Source: Cavenderia fasciculata
Taxonomy: Eukaryota > Evosea > Eumycetozoa > Acytosteliales > Cavenderiaceae
DNA: 64,000 nt
Direction: 5' to 3'
Assembly: GCF_000203815.1 (NCBI RefSeq)
Contig: NW_004457708.1
Coordinates: 124,001 to 188,000, forward strand
Shown here: one piece after another, positions 4,379-39,764 of the stretch
How positions within the stretch are numbered: the stretch's first letter is position 1
Layout of the letters: each line of letters opens with the position of its first letter
Position numbers and translations under genes: made by a program
The notes under the pieces: model-generated
The model's input: the letters and a program-made list of their open reading frames with translations, nothing else
Databases searched by the model: none
What the model was told of the DNA's origin: nothing

Positions 4379-4509
4379 AGATTTTTTTTTTTTTTTAAAG
4401 TAATTCTTTACCTGTTCCTCCTATCGGGAAGAGTAGTACTCAGAAGTTACAAAGTTTTATTAATTATACTTTTTAATTGACCAGCAAGAAATAAAGATTA
4501 TCTCAAGAA
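4379..4509 (-). mobile_element. Solo 3' tail of a non-LTR element
   Basis: On the minus strand this is the last ~110 bases of the LINE/SINE tail family (ending in GAATTACTTT) followed by poly(A), seen on the + strand as a T-run at 4380-4396. It is 5' truncated at about 4508. The same tail recurs at 4540-4650, 34206-34260, 39650-39755 and 45216-45297. Its 5' end abuts the left target-site duplication of the next element, so two insertions occurred in series upstream of the same tRNA gene. Confidence 0.85.
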
Positions 4510-4523
4510 AATTTTCACACGAG
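4510..4523. repeat. Target-site duplication, left copy
   Basis: The 14 bases AATTTTCACACGAG occur here and again at 5515-5528, exactly flanking the SINE-like element. This is the length produced by L1-type target-primed insertion. Confidence 0.9.
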
Positions 4524-4796
4524 TTTTTTTTTTTAAAGTAATTCTTTTCCTGTTCTCTCCTATCGGGAAGAGTAGTACTCAGAAGTTACAAAGTTTTATT
4601 AATTATACATTTTAATTGACCAGCAAGAAATAAAGATTATCTCGAGAAGAATTAAAGTTAATTTGTTCTGGGGGTTGTCCATGTCTATGATACATGTTAT
4701 ATGGACGTTGATCATGTATCTTATTGTATAGTGTCAAGCATGTTGGATTGTTTTGGGTTGTTGCTTGTTCTAAAAATAAATTGGTTAAAGATATCG

Positions 4797-4828
<32 letters not shown>

Positions 4829-5514
4829 CTCAGCACTTTTGGCTGTAATATTGTGTTATATAATTATTCTATGTTATTATTATTTAGTAAATTATTATAT
4901 TATTAATATTATTATTGATAGATGAAGAGAGAATAGAAGAAGATGAAGGTGTTGAGGAGGATGTGAAGAATGAGGTTGAGGTGATCGATTATAGATGTAG
5001 TGTACGCAGAGTCTTGTACCTCTCCAAATGACTAGGTAGTGCGATCTTGTAGACAGTAGGATGGTTGTAGTTGGACCCAAATATGGCACCAACTCCGAAA
5101 TTACCATACTTGCGGTGAAACCTTAAGCCTTGGGTGCGTCCAAGACCGACTGCCGCTCTCAACTCTCGCGCCGATTTACTCCCCATTGTGGACACTCGTC
5201 TTTACGTGTTGCATATTGTATTTGAGATGTCAGATGGCTTTCTATCGCGACGGCCCAGTATGTCCTCCACTACCTTCCCGTTACTTGTTGCAGTCTGGCT
5301 ACCCAATCTCCTACTGAGAAGGGGAAACTAACCCGGTCATCCTTCCGTGGGGGTGTCCTGTCTCTAGATCCCTAGAGTCGGATGGTTTTTCTCCTCAATC
5401 CCCCCAATTGTGGTCAAGTTAAACGTTGGCGCCAAAGGTAAGTTCGAGGGCAGGATTCGAACCTTTACGTTCCCGGGGTAACACACTCCCGACTCACTTG
5501 CTACGCCATGCCCC
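4524..5514 (-). mobile_element. SINE-like retroelement with tRNA-like head and LINE-shared tail
   Basis: A complete-looking 991-bp insertion on the minus strand. Its 5' end (at 5514) is tRNA-like: an A-box-like TGGCGTAGCAAG starts at element base 7 and a perfect B box GGTTCGAATCC lies at bases 52-62, the spacing of a real tRNA; GGGGCA at the start can pair with TGCCCT just after the B box. The body (about 4830-5440) has no intact frame but shares segments with 39815-39990 and 39200-39300. An internal A-run (T-run 4799-4828) precedes the ~190-base tail common to the LINE copies, and a poly(A) end abuts the left duplication. It sits 46 bp upstream of tRNA-Gln (right duplication included, the insertion site is about 46-60 bp upstream). 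I infer a non-autonomous element mobilised by the LINE at 34.2 and 38.6 kb. Alternative: a deletion derivative of a TRE5-type element. Confidence 0.8.
5426..5514 (-). promoter_or_regulatory. tRNA-like head / putative internal Pol III promoter of the SINE
   Basis: A box (TGGCGTAGCAAG, near 5497-5508) and B box (GGTTCGAATCC, near 5453-5463) are spaced as in a tRNA gene, and the ends can form an acceptor-like stem. The middle does not make a clean 7-base anticodon loop, so it is tRNA-derived rather than a working tRNA. Pol III transcription is inference. Confidence 0.7.
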
Positions 5515-5528
5515 AATTTTCACACGAG
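5515..5528. repeat. Target-site duplication, right copy
   Basis: Second copy of AATTTTCACACGAG; see 4510-4523. Its right end is 45 bases before the 5' end of tRNA-Gln. Confidence 0.9.
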
Positions 5529-5573
5529 AGATGGGAGTATAAAGTTGAGAAAATATTTTGGAGCATCATTCAT

Positions 5574-5645
5574 TGCTCTATCATATAAGGGTTAGTATCC
5601 TGGACTTTGAATCCAGTCATCTGAGTTCGAATCTCAGTAGAGCAA
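5574..5645 (+). tRNA. tRNA-Gln (UUG anticodon)
   Basis: Folds as a 72-base tRNA without intron: acceptor TGCTCTA pairs with TAGAGCA (7 bp), anticodon stem CTGGA/TCCAG around loop CTTTGAA gives anticodon TTG at 5607-5609, and the T arm is CTGAG-TTCGAAT-CTCAG. The D stem is short (about 3 bp). The anticodon arm TGGACTTTGAATCCA is typical of eukaryotic tRNA-Gln. The codon CAA it reads is abundant in this genome's Gln-rich proteins. A retroelement lies just upstream and a minisatellite just downstream. Confidence 0.95.
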
Positions 5646-5652
5646 AAAACTT

Positions 5653-5737
5653 TTTGTTGCCCTCGTTTGTTGCCCTCGTTTGTTGCCGTCGTTTGTTGCC
5701 GTCGTTTGTTGCCGTCGGTTGTTGCCGTCGTTTGTTG
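5653..5737 (+). repeat. 13-bp minisatellite downstream of tRNA-Gln
   Basis: Six copies of a 13-base unit close to TTGCCGTCGTTTG, with a C/G change at one position between early and late copies. It starts within about 10 bases of the tRNA 3' end, right after the A- and T-runs that would serve as Pol III terminator. Confidence 0.9.
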
Positions 5738-34205: not shown

Positions 34206-35833
34206 TACTTTTTAATTGACCAACAAGAAATAAAGATTATTTCGAGAAGAATGAAAGTTAATTTGTTCTGTGGGGTAGTCCATGTCTATGATACATGTAC
34301 CAAGCATGTTGGATTGTTTTGGATTGTTGCTTGTTCTAAAAATAAATTGGTTAAAGATATCACTATTTTTTTTTTTTTTTTTTTTTTTCTCAGCACTTTT
34401 GGCTTTGGGCCATCGATTACATAATTCTAACGTCTTGTCCCAGTTTACTTTTATAATATGTCGCATATCATTTAGCAATCTAGCTCGCAGATATTGTTCA
34501 GTGAATGGTTCATCTCTTTGGTGACGTAGATCGTTACGTCGGAACCATATTCGTTCGAGTGTTGCAGCAGTCAAGTTTATAGTCATTGGAGGTTGTTTGA
34601 GGTTGAGGAGGGTGATATCCCAAACTGGTGGAGTAATGTTGTTGGCAGCAGTAACCTCTTTCAGTATCGTTACTGGTAGTGTGGTCTCTTTGCATTGAAA
34701 GAACAAATTCTTGGAAGATTCATCTTTGCCACAGGATACACAGATTGAAGCGACTGGGTCACCCCTGAGGAGCGGGAGACATTTGGTTACATACTTCCAA
34801 ACCATATCTCGACCCTTTGGTAGTACGATGGTAGAGAGAGCAGCTAGTGCATTCATTGGATACACTCTGTCATCGGTTGCTAAGATCTTTTGGCCTGGGT
34901 CGGGTCGTACACATTCCACTTTTCGTTGGCTATGGTCAGCCTTTGGAGGTACACTTGTTTGAGAGGTACTCTTCCTCTTTTGTCTGGTTCCATTGCTGGC
35001 TTGGGTACAGCCTCTCTGCTGACGTCGTAGGGTTGGGTAAGCTTTTCCCACTCGCTTTGGCAGAGGCGGACAAAATCATTTGGTTTGTCTTGGTTGAGTT
35101 GGTCCATCCATGATTGGGCAAAGGAAACCTTTGCAACTCGGTCGTTCTTTACCTCGTGGAGGAACCTTTCGAACATCCATGCCTTTTGGGCACGGAATCT
35201 AGCGTTGAGGTCCCAGAGGTTGAGACCACCTTGGTCGATCGATCGTATGGAACGTTTCTTGGACATGGTTCTTTTGGTTGGCTTGGTTGGGTCGTACTGA
35301 CGGTCGTTGCTGAACATGAACCAATCAATAACCTTTTCCAATCTGGTGATTGCCTCGTGGCTAGGTGATCCAAGGTACGTGAAATAATTTAATTGTGACA
35401 GACCATATGTTTTGAGCAAAGCTAATTTACCTCTATAGTTGTTGTTGTGTTTAGGTTTCCATCTAATCAAATCGTTGATTACCTTGTCAATACGCTCTGG
35501 AAGGTGTGGTACCAAAACCAAACTGGTTAAAGTAATAGCCGAGGTATCGTTCTTTGCTTTCCTTGTCCATCAGTGGGTACGGTAAATTGGTTGGACTGCC
35601 AGGTGACATGATCACATTTGTCAGTGTTGACTTTGGATGATGTAGCTTTACAGAATTGCTGAATCCATTCGTCCATTAGTTTAAATTCTTGGATGTTTTT
35701 GGCATGTAGACGTGTTGTCGGCAAACTGGAGTAGCTTTACCCAGTTGAGGTGGACAAGAGGCGGTGGCTTTCTCTGTTTGGTTCCGAAAGCTGGCGGTGG
35801 GAGCATTTTGGCCGGGCGGAGGGGTAAAAGAAC
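34206..35833 (-). mobile_element. 5'-truncated non-LTR retrotransposon (LINE), left arm
   Basis: On the minus strand, 5' end at 35833. Coding pieces: the RT segment KLLQFADNTS (near 35720-35745, the FADD-type catalytic motif with the second Asp replaced by Asn), the thumb region GGLNLWDLNARFRAQKAWMFERF split over 34880-35521, and a zinc-binding RT C-terminal domain at 34400-34900 (CVSCGKDESSKNLFFQC, then RIWFRRNDLRHQRDEP). Frames change at least twice (around 35525 and 34890), so the copy is dead. A T-run at 34364-34388 separates the coding part from the shared 3' tail. L1/TRE-like by domain order. The 5' end stops 31 bases before the tRNA-Trp gene. Confidence 0.88.
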
Positions 35834-35864
35834 CATATTTCTTAAATGAGTCACAAGTTGACTT

Positions 35865-35948
35865 GGCCGGTTAGCTCAGTGGTAGAGTAGCAGTCTCCAA
35901 TCAGAGATAGTAAACTGTTGGCCAAGGGTTCGACCCCCTTACTGGTCA
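35865..35948 (+). tRNA. tRNA-Trp (CCA) with 12-base intron, copy 1
   Basis: Acceptor GGCCGGT pairs with ACTGGTC (G-U pairs at 2 and 5); D stem GCTC/GAGT; anticodon stem GCAGT/ACTGT with CCA at 35897-35899; T arm AAGGG-TTCGACC-CCCTT; discriminator A. Between the anticodon stem halves lie 12 extra bases (35901-35912) placed after position 37, the canonical intron site. Identical to the copy at 38456-38539 on the other strand. Confidence 0.95.
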
Positions 35949-35979
35949 GTCATTTTTGCCATTTTTTTTTTTCTGCGGG

Positions 35980-36272
35980 TCTGTCGTGGTGCCTGTCGTG
36001 GTGCCTGTCGTGGTGCCTGTCGTGGGTTCTGTCGTGGTGCCTGTCGTGGTGTCTGTCGTGGTGCCTGTCGTGGGTTCTGTCGTGGTGCCTGTCGCGGTGT
36101 CTGTCGTGGTGTCTGTCGTGGTGCCTGTCGTGGTGCCTGTCGTGGGTTCTGTCGTGGTGCCTGTCGTGGTGCCTGTCGCGGGTTCTGTCGTGGTGCCTGT
36201 CGCGGTGTCTGTCGTGGGTTCTGTCGTGGGTTCTGTCGTGGTGCCTGTCGCGGTGTCTGTCGTGGTGTCTGT
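35980..36272 (+). repeat. 12-bp minisatellite downstream of tRNA-Trp, left
   Basis: About 25 tandem units of TGTCGTGGTGCC with variants (GTGCC, GTGTC, GGTTC and CGCGG forms). Open in several frames because the unit is a multiple of three, but there is no start context and the same array occurs next to the second tRNA-Trp copy, so I treat it as non-coding. It begins ~30 bases after the tRNA. Confidence 0.92.
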
Positions 36273-36281
36273 TCTCTCGCT

Positions 36282-36392
36282 CACCTCCTCCTCTCCTCTC
36301 CTCTCCTTTCCTTTCCTTTTTTTCCTCTCCTCTCCTCTCTCCTCCTTTCCTTTCCTTTCCTCTCCCTCCTCTCCTTTCCTTCCGCTTTCTAT
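36282..36392 (+). repeat. Polypyrimidine CCTTT/CTCCT tract
   Basis: Pure C/T for over 100 bases, resembling the complement of the GGAAA tract at 2757-3330. Confidence 0.85.
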
Positions 36393-36429
36393 TCTTATTC
36401 TATTTTTTTTTGTTTTTTTATACTATATT

Positions 36430-36809
36430 TGTGATGAGATTTAACCTTTTCAATAACTATTGAATTATTATTACCATTGATAGTCTCGTTATTATCATGA
36501 CTAGCAATTGATTGTTCAATAGAAGCCAAAACCTTTTCAAATACTTGATCACTTTGAAAATTAGAGTTTTCGTAACCAACTTTTGCATTGCCACCAAGTA
36601 GAACGAAAATGTTGACTTTTTAAACAACCCTCTAGAATTTTTGAAAGGTTTTGATCTGTAACCATTGTAGGAAACAATATAGGTGTTGATTTGGTTTTTT
36701 CTCCATCAAAATCTTCCAACAATTCAAATACCTTTTTTGAATGAGGTATAGTTGCAGGTTATGATTTTTCAAATTCTTCCTTGAAAAGATTCATTAAATA
36801 AAAATTATC

Positions 36810-36843
<34 letters not shown>

Positions 36844-36860
36844 AAATAAATATTTAATAT
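36430..36860 (-). pseudogene. Broken gene remnant, left of centre
   Basis: Minus-strand pieces MNLFKEEFEKS, VFELLEDFDGEKTKSTPILF and VNIFVLLGGNAKVGYENSNF occupy different frames, so the gene is broken at least twice. The end (VLASIEQ...HDNNETING) is related to the piece at 37880-38160 on the other strand (VLVAIEHDDNKTING), so it is repeated in the inverted structure. Family unknown. Confidence 0.45.
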
Positions 36861-36893
36861 TTTTCTTTTTCTTACCAATTAATTGTAAAGGAT

Positions 36894-37760
36894 TTAACTA
36901 CTTGGAGGATATAATAGAACCAATGAAACCTTTTCCTTGAAATGATTGAAAAATGTTGGAATCCAAGATGACATATCTTGAACTAGTAATCTTTTATAGT
37001 TTTTGTCATCCCTACCATGAGGTTTGATATGAGCAGTTAATGATGCCGCTCTACTTGAATAAACACCAACCTCATATGAATGATAATAATGACGATCAAA
37101 ACCTTTACCAAATTCTTCCAAAACTTGATTCCATGTTGCAGTTGAATTGGTTTTTCCAATTGAAGAAAACTTTTTAGTTGCATAATCTAAAATGATAGAG
37201 TTTTGAATACCTAACCTTTCCAATTGTGGATTTTCTACAATTAATCGAATCTGTTTCTTCAAAAATGTCATTCAAAATACCAAATTCAGTCTTGTTTCTT
37301 GTTAATCTATTTATAGCTGGAGTTGCTACAAATGAATCTTTTATCATTTTTTCTGTTATCATTTTAATTTGTCTAAAAAATATAAAAAAAAAAAAAAGTA
37401 AGATAAATAAATTTGTTTTTTTTTTTTTTTTTTTGTTTTTTTTTACCTTCTATTATTTAAAGAATGATTAAAAGAAGAAACAATTTCAGTACCAAGAATA
37501 ATTTCCAAATTATTTTTTGTTTGATTTGATAATTTTAATTGATTGATATGATTGTTGAAAATTAAATTCAAGTCGTTGAAATTGACAACATATTGAGATA
37601 ATAAACCTTGACCAAGTTCAACTTGACGATCTGTACTTTCTCTTGCCCAACAAATAAATTGTTTTGCTGGTCTTGATAATATTGGATCAACAGAATTGTC
37701 ATCTTGTTGGTCATCCAAAATAATTTCTTCAAATTGATAATATTAATCAATGTTGCATTT
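36894..37760 (-). pseudogene. Broken two-exon gene between the inverted arms
   Basis: Exon 1 piece (37443-37755: DDQQDDNSVDPILSRPAKQ...SSFNHSLNNRR) ends at a GTAAAA donor; after a T/A-rich intron ending TTTTTTAG (near 37372) the frame continues QIKMITEKMIKDSF and FGILNDIF, then shifts near 37260 to a second frame (QIRLIVENPQLERLGIQNSI...) ending at 36894. One frameshift therefore breaks it. The C-terminal part has ATWNQVLEEFGKGFDRHYY. No family recognised. Confidence 0.45.
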
Positions 37761-37879
37761 GAAAATTTTTGATTCACTCAAAAAGATCTTGAAGAACAGA
37801 TTTAATTTTTTTTTAATTTTTTTTTGGTGAACATTCCCCATGTATTTTGAATGATACACAATCGCAACTTGTCGTGTGA

Positions 37880-38180
37880 CAAAAGGTCTTGGTAGCTATT
37901 GAACATGATGATAACAAAACTATCAATGGTTATTGTCTCGTCCACAAGTATGTTAGTAAGAAGTATTTTAAAAACTCTTATGACAATAATAGAAAAGAAA
38001 ATGGTTCAACCAATTTAGCAATTACTTTACCAGCAATGGCTACTCAACCCAATTTGCAAACTGAAACTGAAAAGGAAATTCAAATGGACGATTCAAATAC
38101 AATAGAATCACTTGTACAAAAGATCAAAAACTCAAGGTGGTTATATACCAACAAAAAATGTAGATGAAACAATTGCTCCA
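37880..38180 (+). pseudogene. Gene remnant, right of centre
   Basis: Encodes MVAIEHDDNKTINGYCLVHKY..., related at its start to 36430-36560 in inverted orientation, and runs straight into the minisatellite. Broken by the array. Family unknown. Confidence 0.4.
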
Positions 38181-38189
38181 AATCTCACC

Positions 38190-38428
38190 GCGACAGACAC
38201 CACGACAGACACCACGACAGACACCACGACAGACACCACGACAGGCACCACGACAGAACCCACGACAGGCACCACGACAGACACCACGACAGGCACCACG
38301 ACAGAACCCACGACAGGCACCACGACAGACACCACGACAGACACCACGACAGGCACCACGACAGAACCCACGACAGGCACCACGACAGACACCACGACAG
38401 GCACCACGACAGGCACCACGACAGACCC
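38190..38428 (+). repeat. 12-bp minisatellite next to tRNA-Trp, right
   Basis: About 20 units of CGACAGGCACCA with variants CGACAGACACCA and CGACAGAACCCA; the reverse complement of the array at 35980-36272. Confidence 0.92.
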
Positions 38429-38455
38429 GCAGAAAAAAAAAATGGTAAAAATGAC

Positions 38456-38539
38456 TGACCAGTAAGGGGGTCGAACCCTTGGCCAACAGTTTACTATCTC
38501 TGATTGGAGACTGCTACTCTACCACTGAGCTAACCGGCC
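38456..38539 (-). tRNA. tRNA-Trp (CCA) with 12-base intron, copy 2
   Basis: Exact reverse complement of 35865-35948, including intron and discriminator. Identity of 84 of 84 bases plus the flank shows recent duplication or gene conversion. Confidence 0.95.
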
Positions 38540-38571
38540 AAGTCAACTTGTGACTCATTTAAGAAATATGG

Positions 38572-39764
38572 CTGTTGTACCCCTCAGCCATGCCAAGCAC
38601 CATAGCCAAGGAAAAGTGGAATGTGTACGACCCGACCCCGGGCCAAAAGATCTTAGCAACCGATGACAGAGTGTATCCAATGAATGCACTAGCTGCTCTC
38701 TCCACCATCGTACTACCAAAGGGTCGAGATCTGGTTTGGAAGTATGTAACCAAATGTCTCCCGCTCGTCAGGGGTGACCCAGTCGCCTCCACCTGTGTGT
38801 CGTGTGGCAAAGATGAATCCTCCAAGCATTTGTTCTTCCAATGCAAGGAGACCACGCTGCCAGTGAAGATACTGAAAGAGGTTACTGCTGCCAACAACAT
38901 TCCACCACCAGTTTGGGACATCACCCTCCTCAACCTCAAACAAACTCCAATGACTACAAACTTGGTCGCTGCAACACTAGAACGAATATGGTTCCGACGT
39001 AACGATCTACGTCACCAAAGAGATGAACCATTCACTGAACAATACCTGCGAGCTAGATTGATAAGTGATATGCGACATATTATAAAAGTAAACTGGGACA
39101 AGACGTTAGAATTATGTAATCGATGGCCCTTGGCTCTAATGAACCAAACCGACGAATCAGTAATACATACGATTACAGAACGAATACAAACTATCATCCT
39201 TCGATTCTCCTCCAACTACAACCATCCTACTGTCTACAAGATCGCACTACCTAGTCATTTGGAGAGGTCAAGACTCTGCGTACTCTTCATCTATAATCGT
39301 TCACCCTCAGCTTCATTCCTCTCATCCTCCTCACCACCGTCATCCTCTTCTATTCTCTCTACAACTATCAATAATAATATTAATAATATAATAATTCACT
39401 AAATAATAATAATAATAATTATATCAACTCAGTATTATAGCCTATTGTGCTAGTGAGAAAAAAAAAAAAAAAAAAAAAAAAAAATTAGCGATATCTTTAA
39501 CCAATTTATTTTTAGAACAAACAACAATCCAAAACAATCCAACATGCTTGACACTATACAATAAGATACATGATCAACGTCCATACAACATGTATCATAG
39601 ACATGGACAAACCCCAGAACAAATTAACTTTAATTCTTCTTGAGATAATCTTTATTTCTTGCTGGTCAATTAAAAAGTATAATTAATAAAACTTTGTAAC
39701 TTCTGAGTACTACTCTTCCCGATAGGAGAGAGAACAGGAAAAGAATTACTTTAAAAAAAAAAAC
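38572..39764 (+). mobile_element. 5'-truncated LINE, right arm
   Basis: Begins 33 bases upstream of the tRNA-Trp 5' end. A 275-codon frame (38575-39402) carries the zinc-binding RT C-terminal domain: VYPMNALAALSTIVLPKGRD, CVSCGKDESSKHLFFQC, RIWFRRNDLRHQRDEPF. This is followed by an A-run (39458-39484), the ~190-base tail (39485-39754) and a terminal A-run to 39764. The copy lacks the endonuclease and RT core. The zinc domain frame is intact here, unlike in the left arm. Confidence 0.88.

Follow-up and report, generated by a model that had tools for sequence, protein, structure and literature searches.

A SINE-like retroposon family of Cavenderia fasciculata that probably rides a TRE5-type LINE to tRNA genes

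Overview

The genome of Cavenderia fasciculata probably hosts a tRNA-gene-targeted, LINE-dependent, non-autonomous SINE-like retroposon that is moved in trans by a TRE5-type LINE. Its copies share their tails with LINE copies, stand in one orientation at one kind of target site, are flanked by target-site duplications, have fixed 5' ends and lack coding capacity. The family was recognised from a copy in the window analysed here, a stretch of 64,000 nucleotides (C12:124001-188000), and was followed through the Cavenderia (Dictyostelium) fasciculata assembly (31.0 Mb, 21 contigs).

The copy in the window

The element in the window measures 991 nt, lies on the minus strand (5514→4524) and is flanked by perfect 14-bp duplications of the sequence AATTTTCACACGAG, exact over all 14 nt, at 5515-5528 on the tRNA-proximal side and at 4510-4523 on the distal side. 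From its 5' end, it consists of a tRNA-promoter-like head (5440-5514, minus strand), which starts with GGGGCATGG and reads GGGGCATGGCG..., a family-specific, non-coding body (5076-5439, minus strand), which ends at element nt 439 and belongs to at least 29 genome copies, and a LINE-derived 3' part (4526-5075, minus strand) made up of the end of a TRE5-type ORF2 and the 3' UTR. Specifically, the head contains an A-box-like motif, TGGCGTAGCAA (5498-5508, minus strand, from nt 7 of the element), that agrees with 10/11 positions of TRRYNNARYNG, and an exact B box, GGTTCGAATCC (5453-5463, minus strand, from nt 52). The targeted gene, called as tRNA-Gln(TTG), lies on the plus strand at 5573-5646, divergent from the element and 44 bp away from the proximal duplication.

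An earlier note on this DNA, made from the letters of the window, had described the perfect 14-bp duplication and the poly(A) end, and both are present, the latter at 4524-4534 on the minus strand. The same note gave the LINE tail about 190 bases; the LINE-derived part of the window copy actually spans element nt 440-989, that is 550 nt. The internal A-run that it listed is also present (4798-4828, minus strand, read as T on the plus strand), but it is not a separate module: it lies within the LINE tail and is shared by the window's LINE copies. A second family copy in the window (L085; 39817-39988, plus strand), recovered by the genome search with the body, is 5'-truncated and retains nt 276-448 of head and body.

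A multicopy family with a fixed 5' end

Searching the genome with the body recovers at least 29 family loci (L057-L085) among the best 40 of 55 candidates, the remaining rows being matches to the LINE end of the query alone. The 185-nt 5' part as query gives 26 genome matches (all 25 candidates scored), and the tail as query gives 95 candidates, the best 40 of which were scored. The earlier note proposed an independent multicopy family and set a search with the head beforehand as the test that could refute it: with the first 85 nt of L059 as query, 22 of 22 genome matches lie inside family copies and none on a LINE copy, and the proposal stands.

The copies are alike in sequence and differ in length. 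Head and body diverge on average by 2.05% (maximum 4.8%) among 17 full copies, a comparison outside which stand L082 and L084, with an intact 5' end and large deletions. Three structural forms can be told apart, namely a long form with four copies (L059-L062), a middle form with two (the window copy and L058) and a short form with 19, while L081 and L083-L085 are assigned to none of them. Element length ranges from 842 to 1276 nt, which is long for a SINE; the complete long forms measure 1276 nt (L059) and 1267 nt (L060) without the poly(A). The LINE-derived part accounts for about 425-840 nt across the forms and is up to 99.8% identical to the LINE. Its homology begins at position 331, 612 or 732 of a single reference LINE, a pattern that suggests internal deletion in the shorter forms. 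Coding capacity is absent: the longest ATG ORF in the head and body of L059 has 38 aa, and stops occur in all frames of the long and the short form. Moreover, of the TRE5 coding region, which comprises ORF1 and an ORF2 with APE, RT and zinc finger, the copies keep solely the end of ORF2. The short form, as seen in L067, has gained a stretch at about element nt 430-500 that can pair with the element's own LINE tail; the predicted hairpin spans 75 nt at -19 kcal/mol and looks like the product of a fold-back template switch.

The 5' ends are fixed in that 19 of the 29 copies start at head nt 1-4; the other 10 start at scattered later points. This bears on a reading in which the copies are plain 5'-truncated or chimeric TRE5 LINE fragments that form no family of their own, as the name of the catalogued repeat Df_TRE5-A.2 may imply, and Spaller et al. 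2016 indeed place under TRE5, in Table 1 of PMC5006619, an element of 1275 bp without a full-length consensus. The reading is highly improbable: one 5' end within 4 nt in so many copies, and LINE copies devoid of head or body, largely refute it, and the family has duplications of its own.

Target site and target-site duplications

At every one of the 29 loci, ARAGORN calls a tRNA gene that lies upstream of the element and on the other strand. The distance from the end of the tRNA gene to the start of the element is 56-71 nt in 24 of the 29 copies and at most 150 nt in 27; outlying distances are 13, 126 and 147 nt in three copies and 681 and 1277 nt in two copies with LINE sequence in between. 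At L085, a LINE stands between the family copy and a tRNA-Arg gene. The attribution of the insertion to the site class used by TRE5 is thus confirmed at the scale of the genome by the 24 copies at 56-71 nt from a divergent tRNA gene, a placement whose probability by chance is about 3e-57 when all 1670 first-look tRNA candidates are taken as genes, this number being an upper bound for tRNA genes (best 63 of the 1670 scored). Since the loci comprise 15 tRNA isotypes (Gln, Leu, Ala, Glu, Ile, Asp, Met, Gly, Lys, Thr, Tyr, Arg, Val, Cys, and Ser), what is targeted is the Pol III gene rather than any single sequence.

The LINE copies share this habit, with the same orientation and the same distance to the tRNA gene. 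Eighteen of the 30 tail loci fetched are copies of the SINE-like element and 12 are others, in five of which the LINE runs off the stretch; at the seven LINE loci with a visible 5' end, a divergent tRNA gene stands at 50-63 nt (six loci) or 111 nt (one locus). In addition, a LINE tail fragment is found directly distal to five copies of the SINE-like element (C12, C13, C7, C19, and C18), and newcomers seem to insert at an unchanged distance from the tRNA gene and to push older insertions outward, in which case the order of the insertions would read as their age. In the window, such a fragment, the 5'-truncated 3' end of a LINE (4382-4509, minus strand), adjoins the insertion on its distal side and seems to have arrived earlier at this target. 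By eye, this fragment has no clear duplication of its own.

Target-site duplications were assessed in the 24 of 29 copies that have a findable 3' end. Twenty of these 24 copies are flanked by exact duplications that reach 11 nt or more (11-17 bp), whereas 4 of 552 mismatched control pairs do so; the duplications of L059, L074 and L081 are of low complexity, and discounting them leaves 17. No duplication of at least 11 nt was found at L072, L075, L083, and L084. The assessment leaves aside L061, L062, L079, L082, and L085, for want of a recognisable 3' end motif, and the first four of them visibly break off within the tail. The private duplications also count against a multiplication of the copies by segmental duplication of tRNA loci instead of retrotransposition. 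The window does hold an inverted duplication that includes a tRNA locus (35808-39129), so the process has a local example, but tRNA isotypes differ among the family loci and each duplication is private to its copy, which refutes this explanation for 17 of the 24 copies tested and leaves it hardly any probability for the family as a whole.

Shared tails and the partner LINE

The tails of the SINE-like elements were aligned with those of LINE copies in 30 rows, 19 from the family and 11 from LINEs, with 32 informative columns; two of the LINE rows (L029 and L051) derive from loci that overlap and probably represent one copy, and 10 of the 29 family copies, which lack the anchor, stand outside this comparison. 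At the informative columns, 14 of the 19 tails are identical to LINE L037/L040, those of L059 and L064 are identical to LINE L055, which belongs to another subfamily, and those of L058, L071, and L080 match no LINE row fully. That one and the same head and body occurs on the tails of two LINE subfamilies points to tail exchange. Over longer stretches, the family copy L060 is 99.8% identical to LINE L040 over 833 nt, and the window copy is 99.5% identical to it; L040 and the LINE of the window are 94.7% identical. A tail common to the element and a LINE, as described for the window in the earlier note, is borne out.

Two C. fasciculata proteins are 99% identical to the LINE of the window, over 67% and 43% of the query. 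The reverse transcriptase of the LINE has its closest relatives outside the species in D. discoideum ORF2 proteins, at 40%, and the partner LINE is probably the TRE5-A.1 of Spaller et al. 2016. Searching the genome with D. discoideum ORF2 returned, in the best 44 of 69 candidates, no LINE copy with both endonuclease and reverse transcriptase, and the LINE copy that extends furthest 5' ends next to a tRNA gene, at a point that corresponds roughly to residue 315 of the D. discoideum homologue. The endonuclease families PF03372 and PF14529 gave no match beside the LINE copies; since the D. discoideum ORF2 proteins listed as relatives go without these labels too, this provides no evidence. In the same set of candidates, a single TRE-type 5' end with ORF1 and an endonuclease-like start was met, at L089 (C10:271700-277200), which has an ORF1-like frame and an endonuclease-like start of ORF2, lies beside a tRNA-Tyr gene and misses its 3' part. 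L089 also carries a duplicated 5' UTR segment.

The state of the LINE copies leaves room for another origin of the family, in which the elements are internally deleted LINEs of the SIDE kind: head and body would be the 5' UTR or 5' end of the partner LINE, the middle would have been lost, and the promoter would be the LINE's own, perhaps a Pol II one. Such elements have precedents in the R2 SIDEs described in PMC3414825 and in D. discoideum TRE5-A.2 as presented in PMC5391098; moreover, among the best 44 of 69 candidates no copy of the partner LINE extends 5' beyond about residue 315, so that its true 5' end is out of view, and the T-run in the tail, described below, speaks against Pol III. 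Conversely, head and body occur on no LINE copy found, the 5' region of L089 is unrelated to the head (though L089 may represent a different LINE), the exact B box lies near the 5' end, and the head and body of L059 hold no ATG ORF longer than 38 aa, whereas D. discoideum TRE5-A.2 keeps ORF1. On this balance, an origin by internal deletion of the LINE is unlikely, and a SINE-like element with a head of its own, moved by the LINE in trans, is the preferred interpretation.

The head as a putative promoter

The exact B box is the most distinctive part of the head. In the window, GGTTCGAATCC has one match against 0.01 expected, and 1 of 100 shuffles has one; in the genome, it occurs 27 times, of which 20 in family heads, and the reversed control occurs 0 times. 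Only one of the seven exact B boxes outside the heads lies inside an ARAGORN tRNA gene. The other six (L090, L091, and L093-L096) are at places where ARAGORN calls no tRNA gene, and they are possibly solitary TFIIIC sites.

The A box is less well defined. The motif starts at nt 6-7 of the element, and in D. discoideum tRNA genes the A box is fixed at +8, according to PMC5391098. It fits the consensus at 10/11 positions in the window copy and at 9/11 in the other 15 copies with both boxes, and the A-box scores of L059 and L067 are at chance level. The distance between the two boxes is 45 nt in the window copy, compared with 43-45 nt in 14 of the 23 tRNA genes scored; among the 16 copies with both boxes, it is 52 nt in 14, 36 nt in L063 and 45 nt solely in the window copy, which misses 7 nt that most copies carry between the boxes. 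The description of the head as an A box and a perfect B box at tRNA spacing consequently holds for the B box, which is exact, and for the 45-nt spacing of the window copy, but the A box is imperfect.

The assignment of the head to the tRNA class fares similarly. In the heads of L059 and of the window copy, the two tested, the Rfam tRNA model finds no match at E values up to 10, and neither there nor in the body of L059 was there a match to 7SL, 5S or other Rfam families, the listed lines being far below the gathering scores. The likeness to 32 tRNA genes is marginal, with scores of 43.5 and 42.5 against maxima of 43.0 and 42.0 in 100 shuffles. A tRNA-derived 5' part is not supported; the exact B box and the weak A box remain, and the element is called SINE-like rather than a tRNA-derived SINE because of the missing Rfam match and the marginal likeness.

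Termination signals also have to be considered. A TTTTT run is present in the LINE tail of 26 of the 29 copies, about 240 nt short of the 3' end that the helper would need, and both short-form copies scanned have a TTTT at nt 85. In the 33 tRNA gene calls near the copies, the first T-run has at least five T in 26 and four in 7 (range 4 to 11), so a run of five may terminate Pol III, and the tail TTTTT fits poorly with a full-length Pol III transcript. Judging from the letters alone, we lean towards transcription of the element by Pol III from the head, with read-through of these runs, and keep Pol II as a rival. It is a more tentative idea that the head is a working Pol III promoter delivered next to Pol III genes by the borrowed tail. 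Every new copy would then make a tRNA locus into two divergent Pol III units, add a further B box and possibly act as a landing site in its turn, and the family would have a nearly complete site specificity owed to its helper.

A model for transposition

We infer mobilisation in trans, Pol III transcription and the intervention of a targeting protein, in the following order. The RNA would start at the conserved GGGG of the 5' end, most likely from the internal promoter of the head (type-2 Pol III, with a B box and a weak A box), and it would carry no protein, its 3' part being equivalent to the 3' end of the TRE5-type LINE. The reverse transcriptase encoded by the ORF2 of the LINE would bind the borrowed tail in trans, and some LINE protein able to find Pol III complexes would bring the machinery to a tRNA gene. 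The DNA would then be cut about 60 bp upstream of the tRNA gene, and target-primed reverse transcription of the RNA would generate the duplications of 11-17 bp and the poly(A).

The family can thus serve as a natural experiment on the cis requirements of a LINE that targets tRNA genes. RNAs with just about 425 nt of LINE 3' sequence reach the same spot as the LINE, which suggests that the choice of the target probably resides in the proteins rather than in the RNA body.

Comparison with known elements

Classical SINEs with a tRNA head and a LINE tail are modular, with head, body, LINE tail, poly(A), and duplications, and they mostly scatter in the genome. Unlike these, the C. fasciculata element would be directed to tRNA genes by the helper LINE, and its head resembles a tRNA only in part.

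The family is probably the Df_TRE5-A.2 of Spaller et al. 2016, listed there as a partial TRE5, an identification that is based on species, length, and site. Specifically, Table 1 of PMC5006619 reports Df_TRE5-A.2 with 20 copies, 18 of which lie 31-98 bp 5' of tRNA genes; the two agree in species, in length (1275 bp against the 1276 and 1267 nt of the complete long forms), in the location upstream of tRNA genes, and in that the catalogued element is named beside TRE5-A.1, and they differ in copy number (20 there, at least 29 here). The SINE is therefore less new than it looked in the earlier note, since it was very probably already catalogued, but the words SINE and non-autonomous are absent from the main text of that paper. 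Likewise, the passage of PMC5911963 that tabulates tRNA-targeted retrotransposons names no SINE, and neither a dictyostelid SINE nor a tRNA-gene-targeted SINE was found in the titles and opening parts of abstracts of the best-matching open-access papers. The novelty consists in the reinterpretation of a probably catalogued repeat and in the new evidence for it, namely the separate 5' end with its B box, the targeting shared with the helper, and the tails of two LINE subfamilies.

In the account given by PMC5391098, D. discoideum TRE5-A.2 is non-autonomous, apparently mobilised in trans, and a model for an element that keeps ORF1. It resembles the C. fasciculata family in being the non-autonomous partner of a TRE5 LINE and in having a comparable target upstream of tRNA genes. 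Conversely, it keeps ORF1 and LINE modules, whereas the C. fasciculata family lacks an ORF and has a B box and a 5' end of unrelated sequence. By analogy, the nearest counterparts of a short element riding a site-specific LINE are the R2 SIDEs. These, together with the R2/R1 hybrid SIDEs, are described in PMC3414825 as short and non-autonomous, and they take both their 3' end and their fixed target from a site-specific LINE; their 5' part differs in being the ribozyme of the LINE, and their targets are rRNA genes. In the same source, template jumps of Drosophila R2 place tRNA sequence at 5' ends, and a template jump to a tRNA could plausibly have given birth to a head of the kind found here. 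Other short entries given as partial in Table 1 of PMC5006619, for instance Dd_TRE5-C (879 bp) and Pp_TRE5-A (1169 bp), may merit a similar analysis.

Repeats next to other tRNA genes of the window

The inverted duplication in the window is large and includes two tRNA-Arg(CCT)-like genes (regions 35808-36272 and 38186-38596). Both genes are directly followed downstream by arrays of a 12-bp repeat (CCTGTCGTGGTG-like) and are preceded upstream by TRE5-type LINE copies. Lastly, short tandem repeats (GTTGCCGTCGTTT-like) lie directly downstream of tRNA-Gln, at 5650-5730, and recall the arrays of the tRNA-Arg genes.
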